Source of the DNA: Sulfurospirillum diekertiae | GTDB taxonomy: Bacteria > Campylobacterota > Campylobacteria > Campylobacterales > Sulfurospirillaceae | Reading direction: 5' to 3' | Assembly: GCF_002309535.1 (NCBI RefSeq) | Contig: NZ_CP023275.1 | Coordinates: 2,666,001-2,730,000, forward strand | DNA: 64,000 bases | Shown here: positions 2,319 through 63,041 of the stretch, piece after piece | How positions within the stretch are numbered: the stretch's first letter is position 1 | How the letters are laid out: the number at the start of each line of letters is the position of its first letter | Translations under genes and position numbers: made by a program | The notes under the pieces: model-generated | What the model saw: the letters and a program-made list of their open reading frames with translations, nothing else | Database searches by the model: none | What the model was told of the DNA's origin: nothing

Positions 2319-2449
2319 CTGTACTCCTTGTAAAATTATGTAAGCAGTATAAAGAGCGTGTGTGGAATATTTGTGGAACGAGAAAAATGATTTACATGTA
2401 AAAAAAGTGTTTCAAGAAAATTAAAAGGTATGCTTTCTTTATTTAAAAT

Positions 2450-2973: not shown

Positions 2974-3025
2974 AAAAACTCTTTACATGTAAAACTCAAA
3001 AGTGGCTATCTCTAGCCACCTTCTT

Positions 3026-4556: not shown

Positions 4557-5228
4557 ATGAGCTTTATGAAAATCCTACTCCTAGAAGATGACCCAATTCT
4601 TAGCGAAATTATCGAAGAGTTTTTAGTCGAACATGATTTACATGTAAAGCTCTTTTATGACGGTAAAACAGCGCTTGATGCCATTTTCGAACATAAGTTT
4701 GACCTCTTGCTTCTTGACATCAATGTCCCAAATCTTAATGGGTTTGAGCTTTTAAAAGAGATTAAAAATGCTCACATTAGCACGCCTGTCATCTTCATCA
4801 CGTCACTGGATCAAATCAGCGATGTAAAAAAAGGATTTGCTCTAGGCGCGGAAGATTACCTCAAAAAGCCGTTTGATCTTGAAGAGCTTTTGGTGCGCAT
4901 TGAACGTACTAAAAAACTCCACAACATCGATACAAACGAGCGCATCACACTCACAAATGATCTCTTTTTTGATCCTTCTCATTACGAGATCATCACCTCC
5001 AAGACGTCGTATAAACTCCGCAAAAAAGAGGCGCAACTTTTAGAGTATTTTTTTAAACACAAAAACAGAGTGCTTAGTTTTGAAGAGATCATCGAAGAGG
5101 TGTGGCGTTTTGAAGAAGTGCCGACGTATGCAACCGTGCGTACTTACATCAAAAATCTTCGCAGTTACGGGCTTGAAGCATTGATCGAAAATACTAAAGG
5201 GGTCGGTTATGTCTTTAAGCCATTATGA
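4557..5228 (+). CDS. OmpR/PhoB-family response regulator
   Basis: This DNA-binding response regulator has 223 residues. The receiver domain (about 4-118) keeps the acidic pair EDD, the phospho-acceptor Asp54 in LLLDIN, and Lys in the KKPF motif. A winged-helix C-terminal domain follows (about 125-223). The likely start is the second ATG at 4566 (MKILLLEDD), because a TATAAT sequence (4553-4558) overlaps the first ATG. It overlaps the start of the histidine kinase by 20 bp, so the pair is an operon. The signal and target genes are unknown. One copy of the LHVK-encoding palindrome lies at 4637. Confidence 0.9.
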   Translation: MSFMKILLLEDDPILSEIIEEFLVEHDLHVKLFYDGKTALDAIFEHKFDLLLLDINVPNLNGFELLKEIKNAHISTPVIFITSLDQISDVKKGFALGAEDYLKKPFDLEELLVRIERTKKLHNIDTNERITLTNDLFFDPSHYEIITSKTSYKLRKKEAQLLEYFFKHKNRVLSFEEIIEEVWRFEEVPTYATVRTYIKNLRSYGLEALIENTKGVGYVFKPL

Positions 5229-8333: not shown

Positions 8334-9721
8334 TGCAAAGACTTAATATTGTCATCACAGGACACGTCGATCACGGTAAGAGCACACTCATTGGGCGTCT
8401 GCTTGCCGACACCGACTCATTGCCACAGGGAAAACTAGAGAGTGTGAAAAAAATGTGTGAAAACAATGCGCGTCCGTTTGAGTATGCCTTCTTGCTTGAC
8501 GCACTGGCAGATGAGCAAAAACAAGGCATTACGATAGACAGTGCACGCGTCTTTTTTCAGAGTAAGAAACGTGAGTACATCATCATCGATGCTCCTGGTC
8601 ACATCGAATTTTTGAAAAACATGATCAGCGGAGCGTCTCGCGCTGAGGCGGCATTGCTTCTCATCGACGCCAAAGAAGGAGTAGCGGAAAACTCCAAACG
8701 TCACGGTATGTTGCTCTCGCTTTTGGGCATCAAACAAGTGGCGATTGTGGTCAACAAAATGGACTTGGTAAACTTTAGTGAAATCGCCTTTACCAAACTC
8801 AAAGTCGAATACAGCGAATACTTGGCAACGCTTGGAATTAAAAGCGACATTTTTATCCCGATCAGTGCACGTGAAGGGGTCAATCTCATAGAGCATTCCG
8901 CCTCTACGCCTTGGTATAAAGGACCAACGGTTTTAGAAATTTTAGATAGTTTCAAAAGCGTGGAAGAAAAAGAGAATGATGACTTTAGAATGCCATTGCA
9001 AGATGTGTACAAGTTTACACGCGATAACGATGACAGACGCATTTATGCAGGAACCGTAACCAGTGGGGAATTACATGTAAACGATGAAGTCATCTTTTAC
9101 CCCTCTTTGAAACGCTCACGTGTAGCGAGCATCGAGAGCTTTAACACGCCTGTTAAAAACAGTGTGAAAGAGAGCGAAGCGATTGGCTTTACGCTTCAAA
9201 CACAAATTTATGTGCGCAATGGCGAAGTGGTAGCCCGTGCTGATCAAAGTGCACCAAAGGTGAGTAACCGCTTTGAAGCGAACCTTTTCTGGTTGGGCAC
9301 AAAACCGTTGGAGTTGGATAAACCCTACAAGATCAAGATCGGTTCGGCACAAAGCACCATCTATCTTGAAGAGATCAAACGTGTGATCGATGGCGATACG
9401 CTCGATCATGCCAATGAGCCAAGTGTAGGTCGCCACGAAGCAGCATGTGTCATCTTTAGAGTCCATGATCTTTTGGCAATGGAACTTTTTGCCGAGAACC
9501 AAAAGCTCGGTCGTTTTGTCATTGTTGATGAGTACGACATCGCAGGCGGCGGGATTATCACCGAAGTATTGGAGCAGTACACCACACGTCGTACCAAAGC
9601 GTTACATGTAAGCGATCTTTTGGTCGACAAAGCAAGTACCAATGCGGATTTTGAAGAGGAACTTTTTGCACTCCTTCGTAAACATTTCCCGCATCAATTT
9701 CCGACGGATAATATCGGTTAA
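8333..9721 (+). CDS. cysN: Sulfate adenylyltransferase GTPase subunit CysN
   Basis: A 462-residue EF-Tu-like GTPase whose GTP hydrolysis drives APS formation by CysD. It has a P-loop GHVDHGKST at residues 10-18, DAPGH (G3) and NKMD (G4). It ends without a CysC kinase domain, consistent with APS being reduced directly. The palindrome TTACATGTAA occurs twice (9071 and 9602), encoding ELHVN and ALHVS. The start overlaps the cysD stop. Confidence 0.93.
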
Positions 9722-11322: not shown

Positions 11323-11378
11323 TTTATTTACATGTAACGATAAGGAGTTACGATTATGAGCCACTATATTATCCCCAA

Positions 11379-13640
11379 ATGGTCTATGATGACCTCGAAG
11401 TTTTTAAAAAAAACCATGCCGAATTTTTAGCAGGCACACTCGATGACCTCACCTTTAAAACGATGCGCGTACCTTTTGGTGTGTACGAGCAACGTGAAGC
11501 CAATACTTTCATGGTGCGCATTAAACTCGCAGGCGGTATCTTAACCCCCAAACAGCTTTTAACGCTTGCAGACTTGGCTGAAAAGTACGCGCACGAGGCG
11601 ATTCACATCACCACACGTGGTGGCGCACAGCTTCACTATGTCAAGATTGAAGACATCATCGACATCATCACCACTTTGCACAGCATTGACCTTAGTGGTC
11701 GAGGTGGTGGCGGTAACACCGTTCGTAACATTATGGCTGATCCACTTGCAGGTACGGCGAAAGATGAGATTTTTGATGTTTCTCCTTATGCGCTTGCGCT
11801 CACGACCAAAATGTTGGAACAAAAAGATTCGTTTGCATTGCCACGCAAATTCAAAATCACGTTTAGTGGTTCTGAGGCGGATCGTGGGTATGCGACGATT
11901 CACGATGTGGGCTTTATTGCAAAGATCGAAAACGGTGTCAAAGGCTTTAAACTCTTTGTCGCAGGCGGCATGGGCGCGAAATCTCGCGTGGGCAGTAAAT
12001 TTCTTGATTTTGTGCCTGACTCTGAAGTCTTTTTGTACGCCCAAGCCATCAAACAGGTGTTTGACCAAAACGGTAACCGCAAAAACAAACATGCAGCACG
12101 CCTTCGCTTCTTGATCGAAGAGTTGGGCATGGATGAGTTTAGACGACTCGTTAACGTTGAAATCGAGGCTATTAAAGCCAAAGGTGACTGGGAAATGCCC
12201 ACCACTGAAATCGAGCGTACGGGCGGCGATACAACGCATGAGCCTTTTAGTGTGCCTGAAAACATTTCAAAATGGTGGAACCGTTACGTTTACGCCCAAA
12301 AACAAGAGGGGCTTTATGGCTGTAAAGTGCCAATTCATTTAGGCGACATTCACTTTACCAATGCGCGCGCTCTTGCGAATGCCTTGCTTCCCTTTGGTGA
12401 AGACGTGCTTCGTTTTACAGGCGATCAAAACCTCTATATTCGCAACCTAACAGCGCCTCAAATGGCAAGTTTGCACGACATCTTGATCAACTTTTCCAAA
12501 GATGTTTCCAAACCAACCTTTTTTGGTGATATGGTCGCATGTACGGGTGCGGCGACGTGTCAGCTGGGCATTGCACGTCCCAGAGGTGCTGTGGATGCGA
12601 TTCAAAAACGCCTTGAAAAACTCTTTGACGAGCGCGATTACGACGCATTGCAAGGCTTTAAAATCCACCTCTCAGGCTGCCCAAACAGCTGTGGCAAACA
12701 CCTTATCGGCGATCTTGGATTTTTTGGCAAAGTACAACGCAATGAAGGCTATTCGTACCCTGCGTACAACGTGGTTGCAGGAACACGCACATCAGGAGAA
12801 GGCACCGTATTTGCGCAAAAAGCGGGTGATGTTGCGGCATTTCATTTGCCTGCTTTTGTCGAAGAAGTGTTGGATACATGGCTTTTACATGTAAAAAAAT
12901 ACGAGAGCTTCGCCGACTGGATTGATGATGGCGGACTTAAAATCGTGGAAGAGATTTCTAAAAAATACGTGGAAATTCCTTCATTTAAAGATGATAAAAA
13001 CCCTTACTTTGACTACAACGCCGTGGAACTCTTCTCCCTAAAAGGAAGAGGCACGGGTGAGTGTAGTGCAGGTATGTATGACCTTATTGAAGCCGATAAA
13101 AAAGCCCTCAAAGAGGCGTTGGAAAAAGAGGAAAAAGACTATGAGCTGATTCGTCTTTTGGCCGCTCGTATGCTACTCGTCACACGTGGAGAAGATGCTA
13201 GGGATAAAGCAGGCGTACTCAAAGCCTTTAAAACACTTTTTGTCGATACGACACTGCTCAATGCCTACTTTGGCACGATGTTAGAGGGTGATGCGGATGA
13301 GAAATCGATCGAGTTGGCAGAAGAAGTTATCAAGCTTTACGAGACAATGGACAATACACTTAAATTTGCCAAAGAGAAAGAGTTGGCAGCGGTTGCAAAT
13401 GCACCTCAAGAAGAAAAATCAGCCCATTTTAAAGACCTCAGCGGCGTGGCATGTCCGATGAATTTTGTGAAAACAAAAATGGAACTTGCCAAAATCGGAA
13501 GCGGCGAAGTCTTAGAGATTTTACTCGATGATGGAGCACCGATAGACAATGTTCCAAAATCCGTCGCAGGAGAGGGACACAAAGTGGAAGCCACCACCAA
13601 AGAAGGCAACGGCTGGCGCGTAAGGATCGTGAAAAAATGA
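11379..13640 (+). CDS. Sulfite/nitrite reductase fused to a C-terminal TusA-like domain
   Basis: A protein of 753 residues. Two ferredoxin-like half-domains and the sirohaem/[4Fe-4S] ligands are visible as ACTGAATCQLG and SGCPNSCGKH, so residues 1 to about 520 are an assimilatory sulfite reductase. A helical linker (about 550-670) follows. The last 75 residues (GVACPMNFVKTKMEL...) form a TusA-like sulfur-carrier domain with its Cys. Sulfide or persulfide produced here probably feeds HcyS. Start problem: AAGGAG (11342-11347) serves an ATG at 11356 in another frame that stops after 24 codons, while ATG 11379 has no ribosome-binding site. Inserting one base in the CCCC run at 11373-11376 would join them. 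Confidence 0.88.
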   Translation: MVYDDLEVFKKNHAEFLAGTLDDLTFKTMRVPFGVYEQREANTFMVRIKLAGGILTPKQLLTLADLAEKYAHEAIHITTRGGAQLHYVKIEDIIDIITTLHSIDLSGRGGGGNTVRNIMADPLAGTAKDEIFDVSPYALALTTKMLEQKDSFALPRKFKITFSGSEADRGYATIHDVGFIAKIENGVKGFKLFVAGGMGAKSRVGSKFLDFVPDSEVFLYAQAIKQVFDQNGNRKNKHAARLRFLIEELGMDEFRRLVNVEIEAIKAKGDWEMPTTEIERTGGDTTHEPFSVPENISKWWNRYVYAQKQEGLYGCKVPIHLGDIHFTNARALANALLPFGEDVLRFTGDQNLYIRNLTAPQMASLHDILINFSKDVSKPTFFGDMVACTGAATCQLGIARPRGAVDAIQKRLEKLFDERDYDALQGFKIHLSGCPNSCGKHLIGDLGFFGKVQRNEGYSYPAYNVVAGTRTSGEGTVFAQKAGDVAAFHLPAFVEEVLDTWLLHVKKYESFADWIDDGGLKIVEEISKKYVEIPSFKDDKNPYFDYNAVELFSLKGRGTGECSAGMYDLIEADKKALKEALEKEEKDYELIRLLAARMLLVTRGEDARDKAGVLKAFKTLFVDTTLLNAYFGTMLEGDADEKSIELAEEVIKLYETMDNTLKFAKEKELAAVANAPQEEKSAHFKDLSGVACPMNFVKTKMELAKIGSGEVLEILLDDGAPIDNVPKSVAGEGHKVEATTKEGNGWRVRIVKK

Positions 13641-14905
13641 GCACCTTAGGTATCGCGCTAACGCCAAAAAAAACGCTTCTCATTGGTGCAGGCAAAGTCG
13701 CTGCCCAGAAAGCGCGCGTGCTCGATAGCCTTGATTTTGCCTATGAAATTGTAGCAACTGAGGTTTTGGATGACTATTTTGCGTCCAAAACCTTTACATG
13801 TAAACCGTTTGAGGATACGGATGCTGAAGGCTTTGAGGTGATTATCGATGCTACGGGCAATGAAGTGGTAACCAACCGCCTCGTGGCGTTGAAACCTCAA
13901 CTTCACTTTTGGCTCAATGTCGTCGATGTCCCCGAACTGTGCGATTTTTACTTTAGCGCGCTCACGCGTCGTGGGGACATTCACGTTTCAGTCAGCAGTG
14001 GTGGGAGTTCACCCACACTCGCGCAAGTGATTCGTGACAAAATTGAGCGGATTTTACCACGCGATTTCACATCACTGATTGAACGCCTCAAAAACGAGCG
14101 CAAAAAGCCCGAACGTGATCTTGAAAACCTTCGAAACATTGCCAAAGCTGGTGCGGGAAAAGTCTTTTTGATCGGTTGTGGAACGGGCTATGTGGGCAAC
14201 CTTACATTAGACGCGCTCAATGCGTTTGAACTGCTCGATGTGGCGCTTGTGGATGCACTCGTTTCGCAAGAGATTCGTTCCCTCATTCCGCTTACATGTA
14301 AAGTCGTCGATGTCAGTAAAAAGAAGGGGTTTCACTCCAAAAGTCAAGATGAAATCAACGCGCTTTTAGTCGAGTACGCCACACAAGGATTGGTTGTTGG
14401 ACGACTCAAAGGGGGCGATCCGCTTCTGTTTGGTCGCTTGGGCGAAGAGAAGCAGGTTTTAGCTCAGCATGGCATCGCGTTTGAAGTAATCAACGGCATC
14501 ACTTCAGCTCTTCGTTCATGTACGGTCTCTGGCATTGTGCCCACGATTCGTGACATCTCCAAAGGTGTCACTATCGTCTCGGCGCACCTGCGAGAAACGC
14601 TGTTTAACGACGATTGGGTGAGTATTTTAAAACAACCCTTGCACACAGTGATCGTTTTGATGGCGCACAGTTTTGCGAAAAAAATCGAAGATGCCATTGC
14701 AAAACAAGGCATTGACCCCAACCTTCCTGCGGCGTTTGTCTCGAAGATTGACCTGCCAGATCAAATCACCATAGTAGGAACTGTGGGAAAATTGGATAAA
14801 ATGAGCGCATTATGTGCCACACCAGCGGTCTTAATCATCGGTGAGTGTGTCGCTAAAGAGAACATTGTACCCGCTGAAAATAGCGGCAAAATTATTTACA
14901 TGTAA
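13637..14905 (+). CDS. cysG: CysG-like sirohaem synthase (precorrin-2 dehydrogenase / uroporphyrinogen-III methyltransferase)
   Basis: This 422-residue fusion protein makes sirohaem, the cofactor of the sulfite reductase encoded just upstream. The N-terminal domain (1 to about 165) is CysG_N/Met8-like with an NAD-binding motif (LLIGAGKVAAQKA) and SVSSGGSSPTLAQVIRD. The C-terminal domain (about 170-422) is a SUMT-type methyltransferase with RLKGGDPLLFGR and an N-terminal glycine loop GCGTGYVG instead of the usual GxGPGD. Its ATG overlaps the reductase stop. It carries three TTACATGTAA palindromes (13793, 14292 and 14895); the last supplies the final Tyr-Met and the TAA stop, so the palindrome defines the C-terminus. 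Confidence 0.88.
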   Translation: MSTLGIALTPKKTLLIGAGKVAAQKARVLDSLDFAYEIVATEVLDDYFASKTFTCKPFEDTDAEGFEVIIDATGNEVVTNRLVALKPQLHFWLNVVDVPELCDFYFSALTRRGDIHVSVSSGGSSPTLAQVIRDKIERILPRDFTSLIERLKNERKKPERDLENLRNIAKAGAGKVFLIGCGTGYVGNLTLDALNAFELLDVALVDALVSQEIRSLIPLTCKVVDVSKKKGFHSKSQDEINALLVEYATQGLVVGRLKGGDPLLFGRLGEEKQVLAQHGIAFEVINGITSALRSCTVSGIVPTIRDISKGVTIVSAHLRETLFNDDWVSILKQPLHTVIVLMAHSFAKKIEDAIAKQGIDPNLPAAFVSKIDLPDQITIVGTVGKLDKMSALCATPAVLIIGECVAKENIVPAENSGKIIYM

Positions 14906-16619: not shown

Positions 16620-16681
16620 GCTAAACGTTTAACTTCCCCTGCTTTGTGCTTTTACATGTAACGAAACGTTAAAAGTTTAGC
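16620..16681. other. Inverted repeat downstream of the tRNA
   Basis: GCTAAACGTTTAAC (16620-16633) pairs with GTTAAAAGTTTAGC (16668-16681) with one mismatch, enclosing a TTACATGTAA palindrome (16652). It may be a tRNA processing or termination structure. The rest of 16590-16768 shows no gene; it is the leader of mnmA. Confidence 0.4.
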
Positions 16682-17823: not shown

Positions 17824-18270
17824 TTTACATGTAAGCATATGTTCTACTTCCGTAACAGCGTAAACCACATAAAGATCGCACTTACAGGTTTTGCAATTTC
17901 CCTCTTTAAATTTCTCTCCGGCATCAGGAGAACTGAGTGAAAAGCCCAAAAGTTTGGCACATTCACAGCTTCCAAAGGCTTTTTCAAAATGCTCTTTAAA
18001 CAGTTGTACATTGTGATAAAGCGGATCTTTTGGATCACTGGCATTTGTACGTCCTTGCAGGAGTGAAAGAGCCATAACACCACCACTATATGCTCCACAA
18101 AGCCCACCGTCGCTGCGAGACAAACCACTTCCAAATCCTGATGCGATAGCAGGAATCAATGGTGAATCAATGCCGTGTTTTTCTGCGATGGTTTTTAAAA
18201 CTGCTTCACTACACACATAGCCATTTGAAAAATGCTCTAATGCTTTTTGTTCAACCGATTCATTCATCAT
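17806..18270 (-). CDS. C_GCAxxG_C_C family redox protein
   Basis: This 154-residue protein has the family signature SDGGLCGAYSGGVMALSLLQG and further conserved Cys (FGSCECAKLLG and CKTCKCD). Family members resemble the split-Soret cytochrome region and are thought to bind metal or FeS, but no reaction is established. It is last in a minus-strand set with a mini-thioredoxin and a rhodanese. The palindrome at 17825 encodes the LTCK near its C-terminus. Confidence 0.85.
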   Translation of the reverse strand: MMNESVEQKALEHFSNGYVCSEAVLKTIAEKHGIDSPLIPAIASGFGSGLSRSDGGLCGAYSGGVMALSLLQGRTNASDPKDPLYHNVQLFKEHFEKAFGSCECAKLLGFSLSSPDAGEKFKEGNCKTCKCDLYVVYAVTEVEHMLTCKEKEPL

Positions 18271-18276
18271 ATTTCC

Positions 18277-18507
18277 TTACCCTAAAAGTGCCACAATTTC
18301 ATCGACACTTAACAATTTTCCACTACTGACAACTTTACCATCAATAACCAAAGCAGGTGTAGAAGTCACTCCATAATGCATAATTTGCATGAGATCTTCT
18401 ACCTTTTCTATTTGTGCAAATAGCCCTTTTTGAGCCACCGCCTCTTTTACATGTAATGTCAATGCTTGACATTTAGAACAACCTGTTCCTAAAATTTCAA
18501 TCTTCAT
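18277..18507 (-). CDS. Small thioredoxin-like protein (redox-active disulfide protein 2 family)
   Basis: A 76-residue thioredoxin/glutaredoxin-like fold. The active-site CxxC is in GTGCSKCQAL and a cis-Pro loop is in GVTSTPALVIDG. Such mini-thioredoxins often sit beside ArsP/YraQ-type permeases and arsenic genes, as here. Its ATG overlaps the stop of the rhodanese gene. It contains an LHVK-encoding palindrome (18447). Confidence 0.88.
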   Translation of the reverse strand: MKIEILGTGCSKCQALTLHVKEAVAQKGLFAQIEKVEDLMQIMHYGVTSTPALVIDGKVVSSGKLLSVDEIVALLG

Positions 18508-20460: not shown

Positions 20461-21420
20461 TCATAACAGTGCGTTAAACAGATACCCAACACCCATAATT
20501 CCAAGAGCCACAATGCCAAAAAAGAGGGCAATCAGCTTTACATGTAAAATGCGCTTTAAAATCATCGCTTCAGGCAGACTGAGTGCGGTGATCGCCATCA
20601 TAAAGCTCAGCGCCGTCCCAAGTAACATTCCTTTACTGGTTAACACTTCGATGAGCGGCATCACGCCTGCGGCATTGGAATACATCGGAACGCCCAGCAG
20701 TACAGCAAAAGGGACACTGTACCACGCATTGCTTCCTGCATATTTGACGATCAATTCCGTTGGAACATATCCATGAATAAATGCCCCAATGCCCACACCA
20801 ATCATCACATACAGATAGATTTTCTGTAAAATATCCAGCGTGTAGCCCCATGACTCTTTCACTCTTTTTTTCACCGTCAGTGTAATCTCAACCTCTTTCA
20901 AATCACCACTCATGGGTACCACAGGAATTAAGACGTATTTTTCCATCCCTAGTTTGCCGACAATAAAGCCGCCTAGAATGGCAACCAACAGTCCAAAACC
21001 AATGTACAGTGCCGTGATTTTCCAGCCAAAAAGCCCAAATAAAAGCGCAATAGCAATTTCATTGTTCATGGGACTTGAGATCAAAAAACTAAAGGTAATC
21101 CCAAGAGGAATGCGCGCTTGCATAAATCCTAAAAACAGAGGAATCGCCGAACAACTACAAAACGGCGTAATAATGCCAAAAAGTGCTGCTAAAATATTGC
21201 CTGTGAACTCACTTTTACCTTGCAAATAGACGCGTACTTTGTCGGTATTAAAATACGTTCTCAAAAAACTCACTGCAAAAATAATCAGCACTAAAAGAAT
21301 GTAAATTTTCACTGTATCAAAGATGAAAAAATGAACCACTTCTGCTTTTTGTGTCGAAGCATCCAGTCCGAATACCCCATAGACCAGATAATCTACCATC
21401 TTTTCCCATACATTAAACAT
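20461..21420 (-). CDS. ArsP/YraQ-family permease
   Basis: This membrane protein has 319 residues and about eight to ten helices. It has the DUF318 permease signature with Cys-rich GIITPFCSCSAIPLF and SPMNNEIA in paired repeats, and PMYSNAAGVMPL in the second half. In Campylobacter, ArsP of this family exports organoarsenicals. Its ATG overlaps the arsC stop, which supports an arsenic role. It lacks the Acr3/ArsB fold, so inorganic arsenite export is not shown here. LHVK-encoding palindrome at 20537. Confidence 0.85.
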   Translation of the reverse strand: MFNVWEKMVDYLVYGVFGLDASTQKAEVVHFFIFDTVKIYILLVLIIFAVSFLRTYFNTDKVRVYLQGKSEFTGNILAALFGIITPFCSCSAIPLFLGFMQARIPLGITFSFLISSPMNNEIAIALLFGLFGWKITALYIGFGLLVAILGGFIVGKLGMEKYVLIPVVPMSGDLKEVEITLTVKKRVKESWGYTLDILQKIYLYVMIGVGIGAFIHGYVPTELIVKYAGSNAWYSVPFAVLLGVPMYSNAAGVMPLIEVLTSKGMLLGTALSFMMAITALSLPEAMILKRILHVKLIALFFGIVALGIMGVGYLFNALL

Positions 21421-21820
21421 CGCTTAGCTCTTTTTCAATAATAGGCAAAAGCTCTGCTTTAATTGCTTTACATGTAAGAATAAACGCCCCATAATCTTTC
21501 CCATCGGGATCGGAAAAGCCAACATGAATTTTTTTAGGAATAGGACGAGGAAACATGGGACAGCTCTCTTTGGCATGATCGCATACCGTGACTACCAAAT
21601 CGAAGTCTACATGTAAAACCTCATCGAGTGTTTTGGAGTGGTAGTTCTCTTTCCAAATGCCCTCTTCTTCTAAGACTTTTTTCGCATAGGCATTGACATA
21701 TCCGCTTGCACGCACGCCCGCACTATACGCCTCAATGCCTTTTAAATGTGCGTTTACGAGCGCTTCAGCGATAATACTTCGACAACTGTTGCCCGTACAT
21801 AAAATCAGTACTTTTTTCAT
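21413..21820 (-). CDS. arsC: Arsenate reductase, LMW-phosphatase type ArsC
   Basis: A 135-residue low-molecular-weight phosphatase-fold protein. The N-terminal P-loop LCTGNSCRS carries the catalytic Cys and Arg, further redox Cys occur in VTVCDHAKESCPMF, and the acidic loop is in GFSDPDGKDYG. This is the thioredoxin-coupled ArsC type; the mini-thioredoxin encoded nearby could be its reductant (inference). The first gene of the arsC-permease pair, it has an ArsR-type palindrome upstream. Confidence 0.92.
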   Translation of the reverse strand: MKKVLILCTGNSCRSIIAEALVNAHLKGIEAYSAGVRASGYVNAYAKKVLEEEGIWKENYHSKTLDEVLHVDFDLVVTVCDHAKESCPMFPRPIPKKIHVGFSDPDGKDYGAFILTCKAIKAELLPIIEKELSDV

Positions 21821-21872
21821 GATCTAGCCTTTACATGTAACAATGATGAAATGGTAGCATAAAATTATCTTT

Positions 21873-24499: not shown

Positions 24500-25861
24500 A
24501 TGTCCGTGAAACGTTATATCGATAAAGTTCTTCAATCAACGATTGAGAGTACCCCCGGTCAAACGGAGTTTTACCAAGCGGTTGAAGAGGTTTTAACCTC
24601 TCTTGAACCGCTTTTACAGGCAGAGTCCAAATACGATCAGTACAATATACTAGAGCGTATCGTCATTCCTGAGCGTCAAATCCTCTTTCGTGTTGTCTGG
24701 ATCGATGATCAAGGCAAAATCCAAACCAATATTGGTTACCGCGTCCAGTTTAACTCTGCCATTGGACCTTATAAAGGCGGCCTTCGTTTTCATCCCAGTG
24801 TCAATCTTGGTATCATCAAGTTTTTAGGCTTTGAGCAGACCTTTAAAAACTCTCTGACGGGGCTGGCTATTGGTGGAGCAAAAGGGGGCAGTAATTTTAA
24901 TCCCAAAGGCAAAAGTGAAGGTGAAATTATGCGCTTTTGCCAATCGTTTATGGTGGAACTCTCCAAACACATCGGCGAGACGAAAGATATCCCTGCGGGC
25001 GACATTGGTGTCGGTGGACGTGAGATTGGCTATCTGTTTGGCGAATACAAACGCCTGACGGGTCGTTTTGAAGGAGCCTTAACAGGCAAAGGACTCAATT
25101 GGGGAGGATCTCTCGCGCGCACGGAAGCAACAGGGTATGGTTCGGTCTATTTTGCCGAAAATATCCTCAACAAAGCGGGTGACTCGCTTAAAGGTAAAAT
25201 ATGCACCGTATCAGGAGCGGGCAATGTGGCACTTTATACGATTCAAAAGCTCTATGACATGGGGGCAATACCCGTTACATGCAGTGACTCTCATGGAATG
25301 ATCTACGATAAAAATGGTATTGATTTTAATGCACTTAAAGCCATTAAAGAGATTGCGCGTAAAGATTTAAGCGAATACCTTAATGTTCACGCAGAAGCGA
25401 CCTATATTCCTGTCAGTCAATATCCCGAAGGAACGAATGCTGTTTGGAGTATCCCGTGTTTTGCAGCATTTCCGAGTGCGACACAAAATGAACTGGGTCT
25501 AAATGACATTCAAATTCTTTATAAAAACGGCTGTCGGTTGGTTAATGAAGGGGCGAATATGCCAAGCACCCCGCAAGCAATTGACTTTATGTTGGCACAC
25601 AAAATGTTTTACGGCCCTGCAAAGGCTGCCAATGCGGGTGGTGTTGCTACCAGTCAGTTAGAGATGAGCCAAAATGCCAGTATGCAAAAATGGAGTTTTG
25701 CTGAAGTCGACAGTAAACTCAGAGGTATTATGAAAAATATTTTTGAGCTTTCCTATAAAACATCCAAAGAGTTTGGTGATGAAGGGAACTTGATGTTGGG
25801 TGCGAATATTGCAGGATTTCGAAAAGTGGCTGACTCGATGATTGATCAAGGGGCAGTATAG
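24500..25861 (+). CDS. gdhA: NADP-specific glutamate dehydrogenase
   Basis: A 453-residue enzyme making glutamate from 2-oxoglutarate and ammonium. Conserved segments include PYKGGLRFHPSVN, GGAKGGSNFNPKGKS with the substrate and catalytic lysines, PAGDIGVGGREIG, and a C-terminal Rossmann domain. Its length is typical of hexameric bacterial GdhA. AAAGGAG lies upstream of ATG 24500, and a strong terminator follows the stop directly. Confidence 0.95.
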   Translation: MSVKRYIDKVLQSTIESTPGQTEFYQAVEEVLTSLEPLLQAESKYDQYNILERIVIPERQILFRVVWIDDQGKIQTNIGYRVQFNSAIGPYKGGLRFHPSVNLGIIKFLGFEQTFKNSLTGLAIGGAKGGSNFNPKGKSEGEIMRFCQSFMVELSKHIGETKDIPAGDIGVGGREIGYLFGEYKRLTGRFEGALTGKGLNWGGSLARTEATGYGSVYFAENILNKAGDSLKGKICTVSGAGNVALYTIQKLYDMGAIPVTCSDSHGMIYDKNGIDFNALKAIKEIARKDLSEYLNVHAEATYIPVSQYPEGTNAVWSIPCFAAFPSATQNELGLNDIQILYKNGCRLVNEGANMPSTPQAIDFMLAHKMFYGPAKAANAGGVATSQLEMSQNASMQKWSFAEVDSKLRGIMKNIFELSYKTSKEFGDEGNLMLGANIAGFRKVADSMIDQGAV

Positions 25862-25885
25862 TAAAACGGGCTTCGCCCGTTTTAC
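25861..25885 (+). terminator. gdhA terminator overlapping a TTTACATGTAAA palindrome
   Basis: GTAAAACGGGC-TTC-GCCCGTTTTAC is a perfect 11-bp stem with a 3-nt loop. Its last bases (TTTAC) are the first half of the palindrome at 25881. It lies between convergent gdhA and upp. Confidence 0.8.
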
Positions 25886-25911
25886 ATGTAAACGTCAGAA
25901 AAGAGTTTTGA

Positions 25912-27823: not shown

Positions 27824-29215
27824 CTAACTCCTTTTATAAGATATTAATTTTTGAATTCTCTGTATAACATTGGCATATCCAATAATTTCCAACACTTCAA
27901 AGATGGAAGGACTCACAGAATTACCTACCATAGCAATACGAATGGCTTGCGCAAGATCTTTAAGTTTTAAACCCTTTTCTTCTAAAAATCCTTTGGTAAC
28001 TGTTTCAAATTCACTCGCACTATTGAGCTCTTTTGCGTCTTTTAGCGCTTCAAGATACTGCTCTAAAACAGTTAGCCCTTCGGCAGTTAAGAACTTCTCA
28101 ACCGCCTTTTCATCGTAACACATTGGTGCCTCTAAAATCTGTTTTACCATAGCAGCAAACTCCACTAAGGTCTTAGCACGATCACGAAGTGCGTCAATCA
28201 GTAACTCTTTCTTTACATGTAACGTAATATCGACATCAAAAAAGCGCAATTCATCAATTAAGCGCGCATGGCTTGCTTGTTTTATATAATGCGCATTAAG
28301 CCATACCAGTTTTTCTTGGTTATAAGCCGAAGCTGATTTATTGATATTTGAAGGATCAAACAGCTCTTGCATCTGCTCAAATGAGAAAATCTCTTGATCG
28401 CCATGACTCCAGCCTAATCGAATCAGAAAATTGAGCAGAGCTTCTGGTAGATACCCTTCCCTCTTATACTCCATCACATCAACGGCACCATCGCGTTTAG
28501 AGAGCTTTTTACCTTGAGGATTTAAAATCATAGGAACATGGTAAAATTTGGGAATATCGAAACCAAGCGCTTGATATAAAATGATCTGTTTAGGTGTATT
28601 GGAAAGATGGTCATCCCCACGAATGACTTCATTAACGCCCATCAGCGCGTCATCGATGACAACAACAAAGTTATAGGTTGGTGTGCCATCACTTCTAGCG
28701 ATGATGAAATCATCCAACATATCGCTCGCATTAAAACTGACTTCACCTTTAACACCGTCGACAAAAGAGATCACGCCACTTGTGGGTGCTTTGATACGAA
28801 TAACAGGCTCAACGCCCTCTGGAGGCGTTCCCGTAAAGTCACGGTATCTCCCATCATATTTTGGGCGTTCTTTACGTGCCATTTGAGCTTCTCGAAGTGC
28901 ATCAAGCTCCTCTTTGCTCATATAACATTTATACGCTTTTCCAGCATCCAAAAGCTTTTGAACATAACTTTTATAGAGATCGAAACGCTCTGATTGATAA
29001 ACAATCTCACCCTCATGCGCTAAACCAACCCATTTGAATGCCTCGACAATAGCATCTGCTGCTGCTTTGGAGTTTCGAGCAAGATCTGTATCTTCAATAC
29101 GAAATAAAAATTTTCCATTATTTCTTTTTGCCCACAAATAACTGTAAAGAGCCGTTCTAAGCCCTCCAATATGCAGATATCCCGTAGGACTAGGGGCAAA
29201 GCGTGTCACAACCAT
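27824..29215 (-). CDS. gltX: Glutamyl-tRNA synthetase
   Basis: A class I aminoacyl-tRNA synthetase of 463 residues. The HIGH motif is in [11 protein letters not shown] and the KMSKS motif appears as KKLSKRDG. The start is ATG 29213-29215 ([12 protein letters not shown]); the open frame extends 17 codons further but lacks homology. Epsilonproteobacteria often carry two GltX paralogues, one specialised for tRNA-Gln; this copy occupies the gltX2 position of C. jejuni, but its specificity cannot be read here. The palindrome at 28213 encodes TLHVK. Confidence 0.94.
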
Positions 29216-32765: not shown

Positions 32766-33404
32766 ATGGCTTTACATGTAAAGGCGCTAGAGCAAAACAA
32801 TACACATGAGTTTGATGGCTTTTATGCCATCTACTCTACTGCCTTTCCCCTTTCAGAACAAAAATCCCGTGACGCACTTTTAGCGATGCAACATGCCTCT
32901 TTTTACACCATTTATCTCGCTTATAATGACGAAAAAATTGTAGGATTTTGCATTATGTATCATCCGCAAGATGATGATTTTTTCTTGCTGGAATACATGG
33001 CGGTCGATGAGAGCCTCCGTGGCATTGGGCTGGGTTCAACGCTTTTAAAAAATAGCATTGAACAGCTTTTTAAAATGCATGGTATACGTGCACTTTTGAT
33101 CGAAATAGACTCGCCTGAAAAAAGCTCAAGAGATCATGAAATTCGTGAAAAGAGAGAACAGTTTTACCGCCGTTTGGGAGCTTTAAAAATTGACCCCTTT
33201 GATTATATTTTACCACTACCAAGCACTGAAGAAGCCCCACCTATGGAACTTTTAGTCTATCATCCCCGTATGCGCGAAGTTTCCAAAGAGACACTGCACA
33301 CATGGCTAGAAAAACTCTATGTCAATGTCTATGGATGCGCCAAAACAGACTCCCGCATTGCTCAAATGCTTGAGCTTGTACCACCGATGTTAAACCTCAT
33401 TTAA
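32766..33404 (+). CDS. GNAT-family acetyltransferase
   Basis: The protein has 212 residues with a GNAT core: LLEYMAVDESLRGIGLGSTLLKNSIEQL carries the acetyl-CoA loop (RGIGLG). Its start codon is followed at once by a TTTACATGTAAA palindrome, giving the N-terminus MALHVK. It lies 6 bp after dcd and just before a small membrane protein. The substrate is unknown. Confidence 0.82.
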   Translation: MALHVKALEQNNTHEFDGFYAIYSTAFPLSEQKSRDALLAMQHASFYTIYLAYNDEKIVGFCIMYHPQDDDFFLLEYMAVDESLRGIGLGSTLLKNSIEQLFKMHGIRALLIEIDSPEKSSRDHEIREKREQFYRRLGALKIDPFDYILPLPSTEEAPPMELLVYHPRMREVSKETLHTWLEKLYVNVYGCAKTDSRIAQMLELVPPMLNLI

Positions 33405-34660: not shown

Positions 34661-34751
34661 TGGTTATTCTCCACATATTTTTCCGTTACAAATTTTTGTT
34701 GTAACACTATTTTACATGTAAAAAGTAGTTCCCATATTTATTGCGTACGAC

Positions 34752-35924: not shown

Positions 35925-36699
35925 TGATTTTTCCTAATATAGTTTGTAGCTCTTTTGTAAAGGCAGGGTGTTCAAAAACGTTATTATGTGTTGTATGGCT
36001 CAAGATTACATGTAAAGGACGACTCGGCATCACCTCTAAGAGTTTTTCAAGATGGTAATGAGGAATAACGGTGTCATTTTCAACTTCCATCACCGCTATT
36101 TTTGACTTGACTAAAGGAAGGTACTCAATGGTTTCAAACTTGTTTTTAAGCATCAGATCAATCGGAAAGAAAGGGTACTTAATTTTGGCGATAGAGAGGA
36201 TTGAATCGTAAGGACTAATAAGCACCAAACCATCTACTACCCTTTGCGAAGCAAGATAGGTCGCAACTCCCGTTCCTAAGCTTCGCCCAATCAATACCAC
36301 TTTACGTCCTTTTGCGTACGTATCGTAAATCTTGAGCGCATCTTCAAACAAGGCTTGCTCACTTGGCATTCCTGTACTTTCGCCATAGCCTCGATAGTTA
36401 AAAGCAATGATGTCGTAGCCTTGAATATCCTTTACATGTAAAAGAAATTGGGTAGCGTCATCCGCATTACCCCCAAAGTAAAGAATGACTCCCGCATCGC
36501 TTTGTGCATCATGTCGCAATACCCCTTCTAAATCAACGCCCTCTTTGACATGTAAAGAGAGGGGCTCAATCGTTTCACCACTCACTTTGGCTTGCTTTAC
36601 AATCGCCTTAATATTGAACACTTGCGCATCTTGGGTAAAATAGAGATACCCCATCGCTACCAAATAGAGCCCAATAATCCCAAGTAAGAGTTTTTTCAT
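35917..36699 (-). CDS. Membrane-anchored alpha/beta hydrolase
   Basis: The protein has 260 residues with an N-terminal membrane anchor or signal (about 4-20). The alpha/beta-hydrolase nucleophile elbow is GRSLG (IGRSLGTGVATYL), with an oxyanion region YFGGNADD, NYRGYGESTG, and a likely catalytic His in HTTHNNVFEHP. It is similar to BEM46/YqkD-type hydrolases; the substrate is unknown. Two palindrome copies (36006 and 36431) and a one-mismatch copy (about 36545) are inside. Confidence 0.82.
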   Translation of the reverse strand: MKKLLLGIIGLYLVAMGYLYFTQDAQVFNIKAIVKQAKVSGETIEPLSLHVKEGVDLEGVLRHDAQSDAGVILYFGGNADDATQFLLHVKDIQGYDIIAFNYRGYGESTGMPSEQALFEDALKIYDTYAKGRKVVLIGRSLGTGVATYLASQRVVDGLVLISPYDSILSIAKIKYPFFPIDLMLKNKFETIEYLPLVKSKIAVMEVENDTVIPHYHLEKLLEVMPSRPLHVILSHTTHNNVFEHPAFTKELQTILGKIIE

Positions 36700-38160: not shown

Positions 38161-40294
<2,134 letters not shown>

Positions 40295-41005: not shown

Positions 41006-41846
41006 TAGTTCAAGCACCATCGGGCTTGGGCATATCATGCGTGATTTGGTGCTTGCCAAAAGTTTTGAGGGTGAAGTTATTTTTGCGTGCCAAAACTTGG
41101 AAGGCAACATCATCGCCTCCATTCCTTACGATGTTAAAATTTTAAAATCAAACCGTGTAGAAGAACTCATCGCCCTCATCAAATCTTTACATGTAAAACA
41201 CTTAGTGATCGATCATTACGGTATTGACGCGCAGTTTGAGCACACCGTAAAAGAAGCTACGGGGGTGAAAATCCTCAGCCTAGATGACACCTACCAAGCG
41301 CATGCGTGCGATATTTTGCTCAACCACAACCTTTGCGCGGATGCCTCACGGTACAAAAACCTCGTTCCCAAAAACTGCGAACTGCGTTGCGGAAGCCTTT
41401 ACACGCTCATTCGCGATGAGTTTCGAGATGAAAAAAAACAGACACGTGAAAAAATTTACGACATCCTCATTGCTATGGGCGGAACGGACGCCTCGAACAT
41501 CACGCTTTCCATTTTAAAAACCCTTTCCCACTCTTTACATGTAAGCGTTTTAACAACCACGGCAAATGCTCATCTGGGCGAGCTTCAAAACTATGTCCAA
41601 GATCACCCCAACATCGCTTTACATGTAAACTCCAACGAAGTTGCCAAACTGCTTCATCAAAGCCGCCTTGCCATCGTAACACCGAGTGTCATGGTGCATG
41701 AAGTGCTTTTTATGGAAGTGCCCTTCATTGCGATTAAAGTAGCGAGCAACCAAGACGATATGTTTGCATATCTTCAAGCACAAGGCTACCCTGTTTTAAA
41801 GGAGTGGGATGCGTCTTTATTTATGCAACTTTACAACGCTCAGTGA
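40983..41846 (+). CDS. pseG: UDP-sugar hydrolase PseG
   Basis: A 287-residue GT-B-like hydrolase that removes UDP from the 2,4-diacetamido sugar. The N-terminal GLGHIMRDLVLA and IAMGGTDASN motifs match PseG. The start is ATG 40983 (MKTLIRAD), giving a 23-bp overlap with pseF. Three palindromes fall within it (41187, 41535 and 41618), the densest cluster in the window. Confidence 0.9.
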   Translation: MKTLIRADSSSTIGLGHIMRDLVLAKSFEGEVIFACQNLEGNIIASIPYDVKILKSNRVEELIALIKSLHVKHLVIDHYGIDAQFEHTVKEATGVKILSLDDTYQAHACDILLNHNLCADASRYKNLVPKNCELRCGSLYTLIRDEFRDEKKQTREKIYDILIAMGGTDASNITLSILKTLSHSLHVSVLTTTANAHLGELQNYVQDHPNIALHVNSNEVAKLLHQSRLAIVTPSVMVHEVLFMEVPFIAIKVASNQDDMFAYLQAQGYPVLKEWDASLFMQLYNAQ

Positions 41847-48878: not shown

Positions 48879-48887
48879 GTATTGTCA

Positions 48888-51385: not shown

Positions 51386-51412
51386 AGATCGGAGTCTCAA
51401 AAAAAAACTTTA
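51386..51412 (-). promoter_or_regulatory. Sigma-28 (FliA) promoter of the flagellin gene
   Basis: On the minus strand TAAAGTTT (51412-51405), 11 bp, then TCCGATCT (51393-51386) match the FliA consensus TAAAGTTT-N11-GCCGATAA in sequence and spacing. Transcription would begin about 50 nt before the flagellin ATG. Confidence 0.8.
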
Positions 51413-51490
51413 ATCCAAGAGGCTATTTTTAAAAAGATTCTTTTTTAGATAGAATACTCAAAAATGTTTACATGTAAAGATGGAAAATAA

Positions 51491-54581: not shown

Positions 54582-54607
54582 ATTTTATTATTTAATAAAG
54601 GATGCGT

Positions 54608-55894
54608 ATGAGTAAAGAGTCAGTTACCCTTATCGACAATCGTACGGGCACAGAGTATGAATTTCCGATCCTTAAGTCAACACTAGGACCTGATGTTGTT
54701 GATATTTCAACATTCTATGGTAGCACTGGTATGTTTACCTTAGATCGTGGTTTTACCTCCACAGCAAGCTGTAGGTCACGTATTACATATATTGATGGTG
54801 ATCTTGGAAAGTTGATGTATCGTGGTTATGATATTGCGTATCTTGCAACCAAAAAATCATTCTTAGATACTGCTTTTTTACTCTTACACAAAGAGCTTCC
54901 TACCAAAGATGAATATAAGAACTTTTTGATGGAGCTCAAAAAGCGTTCCTTTATTCATGAAAGTATGCGTAAACTTTTTGATGCCTTTCCTGATAATGCA
55001 CACCCAATGGCAATTTTATCAGCAGCTGTTTCAGCACTCTCAACCTTTTACTTTGATCACCTAGATATGGATTCACCGGAAGAAGCAAAAGAGATGGCAC
55101 ACCGTATTGTTGCTAAAATTCCAACAATTGCTGCCTTTTCATATCGTTATTCTCAAGGTCTACCTATCATCTACCCTGATTTAGATAAAGGGTTCACAGA
55201 AAACTTTCTTTATATGATTAGAGGCTATCCTCATCATCATATTGATCTCAAACCCATTGAAGTCAAAGCACTGGATACCATCTTTACCCTTCACGCAGAC
55301 CACGAGCAAAATGCTTCTACCACTGCGGTTCGTGTCGTTGCATCTACGCATGCACACCCTTATGCAGCCATTTCTGCAGGCATTGGTGCCTTATGGGGAC
55401 GAGCACATGGTGGAGCCAATGAGTCGGTTATTCGTCAACTTGAACTTATTGGAAGTGTTGATAATGTGGATAAATATATTGCGAAAGCAAAAGACCCTAA
55501 TGATCCATTTAGATTGATGGGCTTTGGACATCGAGTTTATAAAAACTTTGATCCACGTGCAACGATTTTGAAAAATCTTCAAAAACAGTTGGTCAATGAG
55601 CTTTCGATTGACAGTGAATTGATGGAAGTTGCGCATCGTATTGAAGAGATTGCACTCAATGATGAGTACTTCATTAAACGTAAACTCTACCCTAATATTG
55701 ACTTCTATTCAGGTCTCATCCTGCAAGCACTGAAAATCCCTAAAGAGATGTTCGCCGTCATTTTTGTGATCGGAAGAACTCCTGGTTGGATTTCACAATG
55801 GCTAGAGCTTAAAGAGCAACCTGACATGAAGATTGCGCGCCCTCGCCAACATTACCTTGGACCACTTGAACGTACACCTAAATACGAGATATAA
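54608..55894 (+). CDS. gltA: Citrate synthase
   Basis: A 428-residue type II citrate synthase. The catalytic His are in TLHADHEQNAST and MGFGHRVYKN, and the C-terminal Asp region is PNIDFYSGLIL. ATG 54608 is preferred over ATG 54602 because the latter overlaps the AAAGGA ribosome-binding site. An unusual terminator follows. Confidence 0.95.
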   Translation: MSKESVTLIDNRTGTEYEFPILKSTLGPDVVDISTFYGSTGMFTLDRGFTSTASCRSRITYIDGDLGKLMYRGYDIAYLATKKSFLDTAFLLLHKELPTKDEYKNFLMELKKRSFIHESMRKLFDAFPDNAHPMAILSAAVSALSTFYFDHLDMDSPEEAKEMAHRIVAKIPTIAAFSYRYSQGLPIIYPDLDKGFTENFLYMIRGYPHHHIDLKPIEVKALDTIFTLHADHEQNASTTAVRVVASTHAHPYAAISAGIGALWGRAHGGANESVIRQLELIGSVDNVDKYIAKAKDPNDPFRLMGFGHRVYKNFDPRATILKNLQKQLVNELSIDSELMEVAHRIEEIALNDEYFIKRKLYPNIDFYSGLILQALKIPKEMFAVIFVIGRTPGWISQWLELKEQPDMKIARPRQHYLGPLERTPKYEI

Positions 55895-55899
55895 CACTC

Positions 55900-55931
55900 T
55901 TTACATGTAAGGATTTTTCCTTACATGTAAA
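55900..55931. terminator. Terminator hairpin made of two TTACATGTAA palindromes
   Basis: TTTACATGTAAGG (55900-55912) and CCTTACATGTAAA (55919-55931) form a perfect 13-bp stem with the 6-nt loop ATTTTT, followed on the plus strand by GCCTCTTTTT. Each arm is itself a palindrome. It lies between convergent gltA and the AMIN-domain gene. Confidence 0.8.
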
Positions 55932-55939
55932 GCCTCTTT

Positions 55940-56659
55940 TTACTTCAACTTAATAATATAGCCACCCTTAAAAGCTTCTATATCATAACGATAATGTCCA
56001 TCCAACAAAATAGCAATTCGATAAAAATCATCATGATCGCCAAGGGTTGCTGAAACAAAAGGAGCTTTTTTAAAATCCAATGTTTTTGTGGCATAAGAAT
56101 TGACCTTTTTGAAATCAACAACCACTTTATACGGATCTGCTATCAAAAAATCACGCACTTTAGTATCTTTAGTAAAAATAGTAATTTCATTCTGATTGAT
56201 ATAAAAAGAGAGATTATCTATCAATTTAAAGGTACTCCCCTCCACATTAGTATTCGGGGCAATAAGGCTTGTAATTTTTTCCTCTTTAGGGGCAGGTACT
56301 TTTTTTTCAGCACTTTTTTTAGAATCAGGAACATTCACAGGAAGCGCAATAGGAGAAGAGGCATTAGCATCAGCTTTTGCATTGCTTAAGATCAGGGGGA
56401 GATGCCAATCAATATTTTTTTCAATCCCAACAACTTCTTCACTAATAGATCCATCTAAATTTTGGAAAGTAACAGAAGCACTTTTTAAAATCCGCGCACT
56501 GCTTGGAAGGGTTAAGCTAGCATTGACAAAATCTGTTCGCTCCTCTTTAATCTGTGTTGTTTGTCCAACGTCTTGAGGAGACATATTTGTCTCAAAAGGA
56601 TTTTCTCTCGCCTCTAGTATCACTGCAAGAGATAGAAAAAGCCAAAGAATCTTCTGCAT
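55940..56659 (-). CDS. Secreted AMIN-domain protein
   Basis: The protein has 239 residues: a signal peptide (about 1-17), a Pro/Lys/Ala-rich linker (about 95-140) and a C-terminal AMIN domain (about 150-239, VVDFKKVNSYATKTLDF...). AMIN domains target proteins to septal peptidoglycan or the secretin complex. There is no amidase domain here, so it may be a cell-wall localisation factor. It is downstream of the ftsB-like gene. Confidence 0.8.
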   Translation of the reverse strand: MQKILWLFLSLAVILEARENPFETNMSPQDVGQTTQIKEERTDFVNASLTLPSSARILKSASVTFQNLDGSISEEVVGIEKNIDWHLPLILSNAKADANASSPIALPVNVPDSKKSAEKKVPAPKEEKITSLIAPNTNVEGSTFKLIDNLSFYINQNEITIFTKDTKVRDFLIADPYKVVVDFKKVNSYATKTLDFKKAPFVSATLGDHDDFYRIAILLDGHYRYDIEAFKGGYIIKLK

Positions 56660-60546: not shown

Positions 60547-61320
60547 ATGACAAAATCGATTCATTTTTCGACCTATTCTAGCATCAAGATTGGTCCAACA
60601 CTTGATGTTTTACTGCTTGATTCTATCACGCCACTTCCCAAAGCCTATAAGCTTATTGGTGGCGCAAACAACCTTTTGGTAAGCCCTACCCCACCTCCCC
60701 TTGCGATGCTAGATAAATGCTTTGATTTTATTCGTTTGGAAGAAACTGTTTTACATGTAGGCGGCGCAACGCCCAGTGGTAAAATTCTCTCCTTTGCAAA
60801 AAAGCACGATCTTGCAGGTTTTGAGCTGATGCAAAAACTCCCAGGAACACTGGGTGGCATGATCGCAATGAATGCGGGACTGAAAGAGTGGGAAATTTTC
60901 AATGACCTCATCGCTATTCGAACCGAGCATGGCTGGATAGAAAAATCAAAGATAGAACACGGCTACCGCTTCGCGAAAATCAAAGGCATTGTGTATGAAG
61001 CCACCTTTACATGTAAAAGCGGTTTTGATGAAAATTTGCTGGCCATGTTTAAAAAAATGCGCGACAATCAACCTAAAGAGCCTAGTGCAGGAAGCTGTTT
61101 TAAAAACCCAGAAGGACACTTTGCGGGAAAGCTTATCGAAGAGGCGGGCTTTAAAGGTAAACGTGTTGGCAATATGATGTTTAGCAACGTTCACGCCAAC
61201 TTCTTAGTCAATCTGGGAGATGGTACGTATGAGGAAGCTATCACACTCATTACGGCGGTCAAAGAGGAAGTTTTCAAACGCTTTGGCGTGAAACTGGAAG
61301 AAGAGATCATTATTTTATAG
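60547..61320 (+). CDS. murB: UDP-N-acetylenolpyruvoylglucosamine reductase
   Basis: A 257-residue short type II-like MurB with FAD-binding IGGANNLLVSPT, KLPGTLGGMIAMNAG, the catalytic Ser in PSAGSCFKNPEG, and a Glu near the C-terminus. Its ATG immediately follows the fliQ stop. The palindrome at 61006 encodes TFTCK; a near copy TTACATGTAG lies at about 60752. Confidence 0.92.
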   Translation: MTKSIHFSTYSSIKIGPTLDVLLLDSITPLPKAYKLIGGANNLLVSPTPPPLAMLDKCFDFIRLEETVLHVGGATPSGKILSFAKKHDLAGFELMQKLPGTLGGMIAMNAGLKEWEIFNDLIAIRTEHGWIEKSKIEHGYRFAKIKGIVYEATFTCKSGFDENLLAMFKKMRDNQPKEPSAGSCFKNPEGHFAGKLIEEAGFKGKRVGNMMFSNVHANFLVNLGDGTYEEAITLITAVKEEVFKRFGVKLEEEIIIL

Positions 61321-62039: not shown

Positions 62040-63041
62040 TTAAAAGAAAATATCTTTCGATGTGCTACGTACTTTTAAATCAGTTATGCTTACAAAAGAG
62101 CCTTTAGCATAGGCTTCGAGGGCACAGCGTCCAATCATCGCGGCATTATCGGAGCAAAATTCCATTTTCGCGGTATGAAGTGTCGCTTTTTTAGACATGC
62201 AAAATGCTTCGAGTTCGCCACGTAAATAGAGATTTGCACTCGCTCCACCGACAACACCAAAATGTTCAACCGGACGCTCTTTATACGCTTTTTTGATCTT
62301 TTGCATGAGGTGCGCCACAGCCACACGTTGAAACGAAGCGCAAATATCGCAGATGGTCTGTTCATCCAAATTTTCCTGCGCCTCAACGCAGAGTCTTACT
62401 TGGTTTTTAAGACCCGAATAGCTAAAAGCTAGTAATGAAGTGGAGGTACCTTGCAAAGGAATCGTAAAATCAAATCGTTTGGCATTGCCTTTTTTAGCAT
62501 ACGCCTCGATAAGCGCACCGGCAGGATAAGGAAGTCCCAACATTTTTCCTACCTTATCAAAACTCTCTCCAAAGCTGTCATCCATCGTCGTTGCAAGTAA
62601 GGTTATTTCCTCTAAACTCTTTACATGTAAAAGCTGAGTGTGCCCACCAGAGACCAATAAAACATCCATCGGAAAACGTATTTCATCTTCGATAAAAAGG
62701 GAGCAAATATGCCCTTTGAGATGATTAATACCAAGGAGTGGAAGATGAAGCGCAACGCTGAGTGCCTTTGCCATGCTAACACCTTCTACCAAGCTGACCG
62801 AAAGTCCTGGCTCATTCGTCACGGCAATTGCTTTGAGCTCCGCAAAATAGGGCTTCGCCTCTTCAAGTATTTTAGGAAGAGTCACCGCATGAAGGCGCGC
62901 GGCAAGTTCAGGTACAACACCACCATACTGTGCATGTTCCGCATCTTGCGAAATTTTTTTATGGAAGAGCAGTTTTTTATCACTTAAACGCGTAATCGCA
63001 ATAGAGCTATCGTCACAGCTACTTTCAATGCTTAAGATCAT
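62040..63041 (-). CDS. tsaD: tRNA N6-threonylcarbamoyladenosine transferase TsaD
   Basis: A 333-residue ASKHA-fold enzyme of the t6A37 pathway. The N-terminal ILSIESSCDDSSIAI, the metal-binding HLKGHICS and VVGGASANLYLR are visible. It is convergent with the SDR gene. The palindrome at 62620 encodes LLHVK. Confidence 0.95.
   Translation of the reverse strand: MILSIESSCDDSSIAITRLSDKKLLFHKKISQDAEHAQYGGVVPELAARLHAVTLPKILEEAKPYFAELKAIAVTNEPGLSVSLVEGVSMAKALSVALHLPLLGINHLKGHICSLFIEDEIRFPMDVLLVSGGHTQLLHVKSLEEITLLATTMDDSFGESFDKVGKMLGLPYPAGALIEAYAKKGNAKRFDFTIPLQGTSTSLLAFSYSGLKNQVRLCVEAQENLDEQTICDICASFQRVAVAHLMQKIKKAYKERPVEHFGVVGGASANLYLRGELEAFCMSKKATLHTAKMEFCSDNAAMIGRCALEAYAKGSFVSITDLKVRSTSKDIFF

Follow-up and report, generated by a model that had tools for sequence, protein, structure and literature searches.

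The hairpin behind the citrate synthase gene of Sulfurospirillum diekertiae consists of two copies of a ten-letter palindrome, TTACATGTAA (core ACATGT), which this genome carries 1,211 times and which is apparently kept in place together with a solitary DNA adenine methyltransferase, albeit with exceptions. Close pairs of the palindrome are selected as 3'-end hairpins, whereas methylation of the word, transcription termination at the pairs and a factor reading the mark are inferred.

The gltA hairpin and its palindrome

The analyzed window is a stretch of 64,000 nucleotides (contig NZ_CP023275.1, assembly GCF_002309535.1, positions 2,666,001 to 2,730,000), and its relevant features are collected in Table 1. 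The observation made in the sequence-only reading, that two palindrome copies face each other between convergent gltA and an AMIN-domain gene and form a hairpin, is confirmed: TTTACATGTAAGG (55900-55912) is followed by ATTTTT (55913-55918) and CCTTACATGTAAA (55919-55931). Including the flanking C/G, the stem has 15 pairs and a folding energy of -21 kcal/mol, with a z-score of -7.3 against 200 dinucleotide shuffles. A terminator scan called the hairpin on both strands, with a T-run (CCTCTTTTTA) only on the gltA strand and no clear run on the other. The gdhA terminator (GTAAAACGGGC-TTC-GCCCGTTTTAC) indeed runs into a palindrome copy, as had been claimed.

Chance does not explain the abundance of the word. 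There are 34 exact copies in the window and 1,211 in the 2,814,086-bp single-contig genome, compared to 7 of the reversed word, and in a 464-kb sample (the window plus 20 stretches spread over the genome) 219 copies were found against an order-3 Markov expectation of 0.7. One-mismatch neighbours were near chance. The exact hairpin type GG-N6-CC occurs 3 times without mismatch.

Table 1. Coordinates of the hairpins, flanking genes and palindrome copies in the window
Position	Strand	Feature
55899..55932	.	terminator-like hairpin made of two palindrome copies
55901..55910	.	palindrome copy, left arm of the hairpin
55921..55930	.	palindrome copy, right arm of the hairpin
54602..55894	+	gltA, citrate synthase (PF00285), ends just before the hairpin
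55940..56659	-	AMIN-domain gene (PF11741), convergent with gltA
25861..25885	+	gdhA terminator hairpin, 3' arm overlaps the palindrome copy at 25882
25882..25891	.	palindrome copy at the gdhA terminator
2392..2401	.	palindrome copy
2983..2992	.	palindrome copy
4638..4647	.	palindrome copy
5512..5521	.	palindrome copy
6073..6082	.	palindrome copy
9071..9080	.	palindrome copy
9602..9611	.	palindrome copy
11328..11337	.	palindrome copy
12885..12894	.	palindrome copy
13794..13803	.	palindrome copy
14292..14301	.	palindrome copy
14896..14905	.	palindrome copy that supplies the stop codon of ORF 13637-14905
16652..16661	.	palindrome copy
17825..17834	.	palindrome copy
18447..18456	.	palindrome copy
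20538..20547	.	palindrome copy
21468..21477	.	palindrome copy
21831..21840	.	palindrome copy
28213..28222	.	palindrome copy
32772..32781	.	palindrome copy
34712..34721	.	palindrome copy
36006..36015	.	palindrome copy
36432..36441	.	palindrome copy
39062..39071	.	palindrome copy
40077..40086	.	palindrome copy
41187..41196	.	palindrome copy
41535..41544	.	palindrome copy
41619..41628	.	palindrome copy
51468..51477	.	palindrome copy
61007..61016	.	palindrome copy
62621..62630	.	palindrome copy

Genomic distribution and close pairs

In the 464-kb sample, 145 of the 219 copies (about two thirds) lie in ORFs called by a simple script (0.34/kb) and 74 between them (2.2/kb). The density by gap type was 8.15/kb in convergent, 2.01/kb in codirectional and 1.14/kb in divergent gaps, with a similar order in G016, a genome of another Sulfurospirillum species (4.60, 2.48 and 1.77/kb, respectively). 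Inside ORFs, the Leu-His-Val frame holds 95 copies, the Thr-Cys frame 48 and the stop frame 2.

Whether the genome has other close pairs and competence genes had been proposed as a check, and both are present. A total of 36 pairs lie 3-20 nt apart (reversed control 0), of which 15 are convergent, 16 codirectional and 5 coding, with none divergent. All 31 intergenic pairs are downstream of at least one gene, and 27 of them lie within 50 bp of a stop codon. Among the codirectional pairs, 15 lie between two plus-strand genes and 1 between two minus-strand genes; this asymmetry is unexplained and was not repeated in other species (11 and 13). In 66 Campylobacterota loci, 73 pairs gave 33 convergent, 24 codirectional, 13 coding and 3 at locus edges, again with none divergent. 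Pooling with two further genomes gave 119 pairs over several species, although some may be orthologs of each other, so the counts are not fully independent: 98 are intergenic and non-divergent, most of them just after stop codons, 1 is divergent and 20 are coding. In the 98, the bases just inside the core pair in 79 of 86 (shuffled mean 42) and 59 of 78 (44) cases, and those just outside in 68 of 98 (49) and 47 of 98 (28). In comparison, the 20 coding pairs show this covariation only weakly or not at all (inner 13 of 19 against 10, and 10 of 15 against 5 at the third position). A 12-nt gap accounts for 31 of 99 intergenic pairs, corresponding to a preferred spacing of 22 bp from centre to centre. 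The pairs are therefore selected as 3'-end hairpins.

Maintenance, loss and dialects

Between the studied genome (G000) and G016, at 80.6% nucleotide identity, 68 of 76 aligned sites are perfectly conserved, compared to 20% of A+T-matched 10-mers, and 76 of 87 in the opposite direction. The site identity was 0.97, while the flanks had 0.73-0.80. In contrast, 0 of 46 sites are perfect in G020, a nested species with 49 copies at 79.9% identity to G000, and its sites (0.67) are no better than their flanks (0.71-0.78). In a gyrB tree of 30 genomes, G020 and the 238-copy genome G028 are sisters (support 0.977) among high-copy species, although the deeper nodes are weak (about 0.3), so the element was lost in that line. 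No replacement word was found in a 200-kb sample of G020. Active purging of the word in G020, considered because 0 of 46 sites compares with 19% of control 10-mers, was dropped, since the decayed sites match their own flanks (0.67 against 0.71). Copy numbers in the genus range from 49 to 1,496, whereas most of the 397 genomes of a phylum sample have 0-10 copies, with scattered exceptions of up to 1,059 (G361) outside the family.

S. cavolei (G021) shares 12 of its 15 aligned sites with G000, but keeps only 12 of 50 sites of G000 as perfect copies. Another 14 retain only the core, so that ACATGT is kept in 26 of 50; the corresponding perfect and core-only numbers in G020 are 0 and 2 of 46. The density of ACATGT is 0.75/kb in G021, 0.68/kb in G000 and 0.24/kb in G020. 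The half-site flanks are TT 256, TG 94, CG 53 and TA 52 in G021, compared to TT 624 and then GA 24 in G000, while G361 tolerates CT and GT. The core is thus ACATGT, and S. cavolei shows a flank dialect.

METHYLTRANSFERASE

The first methyltransferase family tried, D12 (PF02086), gave a single gene of about 330 aa in most high-copy species and none in G028. The protein matches PF02086 with 159.6 bits against a cut-off of 22 and contains the DPPY catalytic motif, in agreement with a D12 (alpha-class) N6-adenine DNA methyltransferase. A protein search of 75 genomes found its ortholog (62-100% identity; in two pieces in G023) in 15 of 24 Sulfurospirillum genomes, all with 869-1,496 copies of the palindrome. 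The nine genomes without it have 934 (G024), 840 (G029), 608 (G030), 605 and 411 (G025 and G021, both with a 54-56% relative), 412 (G032), 238 (G028), 168 (G033) and 49 (G020) copies. One-mismatch excess per perfect copy was 0.12-0.42 with the ortholog and 0.15-3.37 without it. Mann-Whitney tests gave values of 9e-5 and 4e-4, but these ignore phylogeny, and the independent losses are perhaps three or four.

On a tree of 36 related proteins, the high-copy genomes of three families group together, except G043 (446 copies), which sits among the low-copy type. The high/low label changes twice, against a shuffled mean of 10.8 (0 of 5,000 shuffles), and also twice against 7.7 when one type-A sequence is kept (23 proteins, 0 of 5,000). 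A relative exists in 222 of 397 phylum genomes at E up to 1e-20, so the family alone is not enough and the subtype matters. There are further exceptions: G024 is 99% complete yet has none, G029 and G030 are only 86% and 77% complete, no full-length relative was found in G035 (567 copies), G168 (340), G391 (380, a weak fragment) and G333 (194), and outside the family only 3 of 6 searched genomes with at least 190 copies have a full-length relative of the high-copy type. Moreover, as only four queries were screened across genomes (ComEC, the D12 methyltransferase, DprA, and gyrB as a marker), another gene could be the driver.

In G000 the gene lies on contig C1 at 2537754-2538728, and it sits at the same place in 11 Sulfurospirillum genomes. 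Neighbouring proteins were compared at 20 of 21 loci (one had no match), and no restriction enzyme was recognised by eye. At the locus of genome G019, an 877-aa open frame two genes away has a start that looks by eye like a Cas9 RuvC motif. A second, 54% identical methyltransferase of the same family lies on the S. diekertiae plasmid NZ_CP059996.1 (1692-2597), and a match starting at the same base (1692) and covering nearly the same stretch is on the second contig of the same-species genome G015. No PDB relative was found at E up to 1, and NCBIfam gave only hits below cut-off. Relatives in phages are annotated as 'ulcer associated adenine specific DNA methyltransferase' (32-40% identity), a name belonging to hpyIM/hp1208, and H. 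pylori hp1208 is an alpha-class CATG m6A enzyme (PMC3936762). However, the Sulfurospirillum enzyme is at most 39.5% identical to any hit whose annotation names a specificity, and a CATG target is inferred from the palindrome.

Competence genes

ComEC was found in 41 of 44 family genomes and DprA in 29 of 29 tested. Both are kept and open in G020 and G028, which lost the element, so the element does not follow these two competence genes and their loss was rejected as the cause of its decay. Moreover, dprA is in two distant pieces in G012 (C4:153796-177886, about 24 kb apart), which still has 1,127 copies, and in G024 (C8:271719-306839, about 35 kb apart), as if a mobile element had entered it.

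Rotational setting

Around 562 sites, the A+T content swings with an 11.3-bp period in coding and intergenic sites alike, with an anchored amplitude of 0.041 and successive A+T peaks from 11 to 181 bp. Nine A+T- or G+C-run anchors reached at most 0.012, and among 250 control 6-mers only parts of the palindrome itself came near. The amplitude was 0.044 in G016 and 0.023 at the lost sites in G020. However, a period of 11.2-11.3 bp is a general property of the Sulfurospirillum stretches examined, present far from sites (autocorrelation 0.0010-0.0016, near sites 0.0020-0.0024) and in G020 (0.0009), so the palindrome is in register with it rather than its only cause. The idea of a self-standing wrapped particle of about 360 bp around each site was toned down for this reason.

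Interpretation

The explanation favored here, with moderate confidence, is a lineage-specific, highly iterated palindrome of Sulfurospirillum, patchy elsewhere in Campylobacterota, which selection or a biased exchange/repair process keeps intact in step with the solitary methyltransferase. In this view, the enzyme most likely methylates the CATG inside the word, and the methylated word would act as a genome-wide mark, possibly of the bacterium's own DNA, read by some second factor. When two copies land about 22 bp apart just behind a stop codon, their 13-15 bp inverted repeat would be further selected as a 3'-end hairpin, and the gltA/AMIN pair probably ends gltA transcription. The analysis itself demonstrates the copy number, conservation, loss with decay, dialects, co-occurrence with the methyltransferase, and the position and covariation of pairs; methylation and its CATG specificity, transcription termination and the reader are inferred from sequence alone.

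The interpretation offered in the sequence-only reading, paired uptake sequences doubling as terminators as in Neisseria DUS and Haemophilus USS, is only partly supported. The terminator-like hairpin, the other pairs after genes and the competence genes hold, but an uptake role is not shown. Such a role remains possible, although rather doubtful, and can coexist with the methyltransferase reading: the competence machinery would recognise the methylated or unmethylated palindrome, and biased uptake and recombination would pile it up where it does least harm. In its favor are the very many perfect copies, the intergenic excess, the inverted pairs at 3' ends (in DUS and USS such pairs serve as terminators) and the dialects between species as in Pasteurellaceae, whose USS also has two A+T-rich segments 12 positions apart (PMC1626085), similar to the A+T-rich stretches flanking the site here at helical spacing. 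On the other hand, the known DUS and USS are not palindromes (PMC1939737) and have shown uptake function, whereas here a perfect palindrome is tracked by a methyltransferase and not by the two competence genes. Uptake read through methylation, as in Campylobacter jejuni, is not excluded. Uptake there needs RAATTY methylated by CtsM (Cj0208, M.CjeNI), a methyltransferase and a palindromic word marking self DNA in the same phylum (PMC10046745); RAATTY is short, degenerate and common (27,280 sites; PMC4889913).

The closest known kind is HIP1 (GCGATCGC) and the alternate HIPs of cyanobacteria, palindromes in very high copy tied to methyltransferases acting on their inner core and lost or replaced in some species (PMC4390886). 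The present element differs in phylum and sequence, in its strong 3'-end and convergent bias and hairpin pairs, in the dialects in the flanks of one core, and in the inferred adenine methylation rather than the G-mC model. That it is merely a by-product of a methylation-directed mismatch-repair ratchet, preserved without selection for function (Elhai's model for HIP1), would fit the core with flanks, the loss with the enzyme and the dialects, but is unlikely, because the excess near 3' ends and between convergent genes, the covarying pairs and the fixed rotational setting are not expected of a blind ratchet. Equally doubtful is a chromosome-architecture site bound by a nucleoid or supercoil-handling protein on a set face of curved DNA, with the 3'-end bias reflecting where positive supercoils gather. 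The phased A+T oscillation and the pair spacing of two such turns favor it, and the E. coli gyrase motif has 130 bp with 10.75-bp G/C periodicity, while gyrase gathers downstream of operons (PMC6379681). However, the sites may merely be placed in register with a general pattern, and gyrase is universal while the element is not. REP/BIME-2 elements of E. coli share the 3'-end location, but REP are longer imperfect palindromes linked to a transposase relative. Ordinary terminators or operators of a regulator with no wider role are very unlikely: although the pairs look like terminators, there are only 36 close pairs among 1,211 copies, most copies are coding and divergent promoter regions are the poorest intergenic class. 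A transcription-factor operator was rejected as the main role on these grounds.

A further-reaching reading, which is only tentative, is that Sulfurospirillum and scattered relatives carry a co-evolving pair of a solitary adenine methyltransferase and a 10-bp palindrome written in species dialects. The word would decay when the enzyme is lost and pile up when it moves to another family (G361), and the methylated word would mark self DNA for uptake or chromosome handling, sit on a fixed face of the curved DNA and be reused in pairs as terminators, a methylation-written counterpart of uptake sequences. What HIP1 does, and whether such words are made by their methyltransferases, has stayed open for decades. 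The element described here would be a second case in an unrelated phylum, with repeated losses, decay and dialects inside one cultivable genus, and would also show how a genome gains over a thousand copies of a word and then recruits pairs of them as terminators. No paper naming this word in Sulfurospirillum was found in an open-licence literature collection, which lacks most subscription journals.

Other observations

The same paired palindrome occurs several times within about 140 bp in an unrelated Prevotellaceae MAG (2 pairs in one locus, L026, and 3 in another, L078), probably as another repeat. Within the window, positions 41629-51467 hold no palindrome copy in nearly 10 kb that encode NeuB, a methyltransferase-domain protein, a Maf glycosyltransferase and a flagellin, which is probably a flagellar glycosylation region, perhaps recently acquired.
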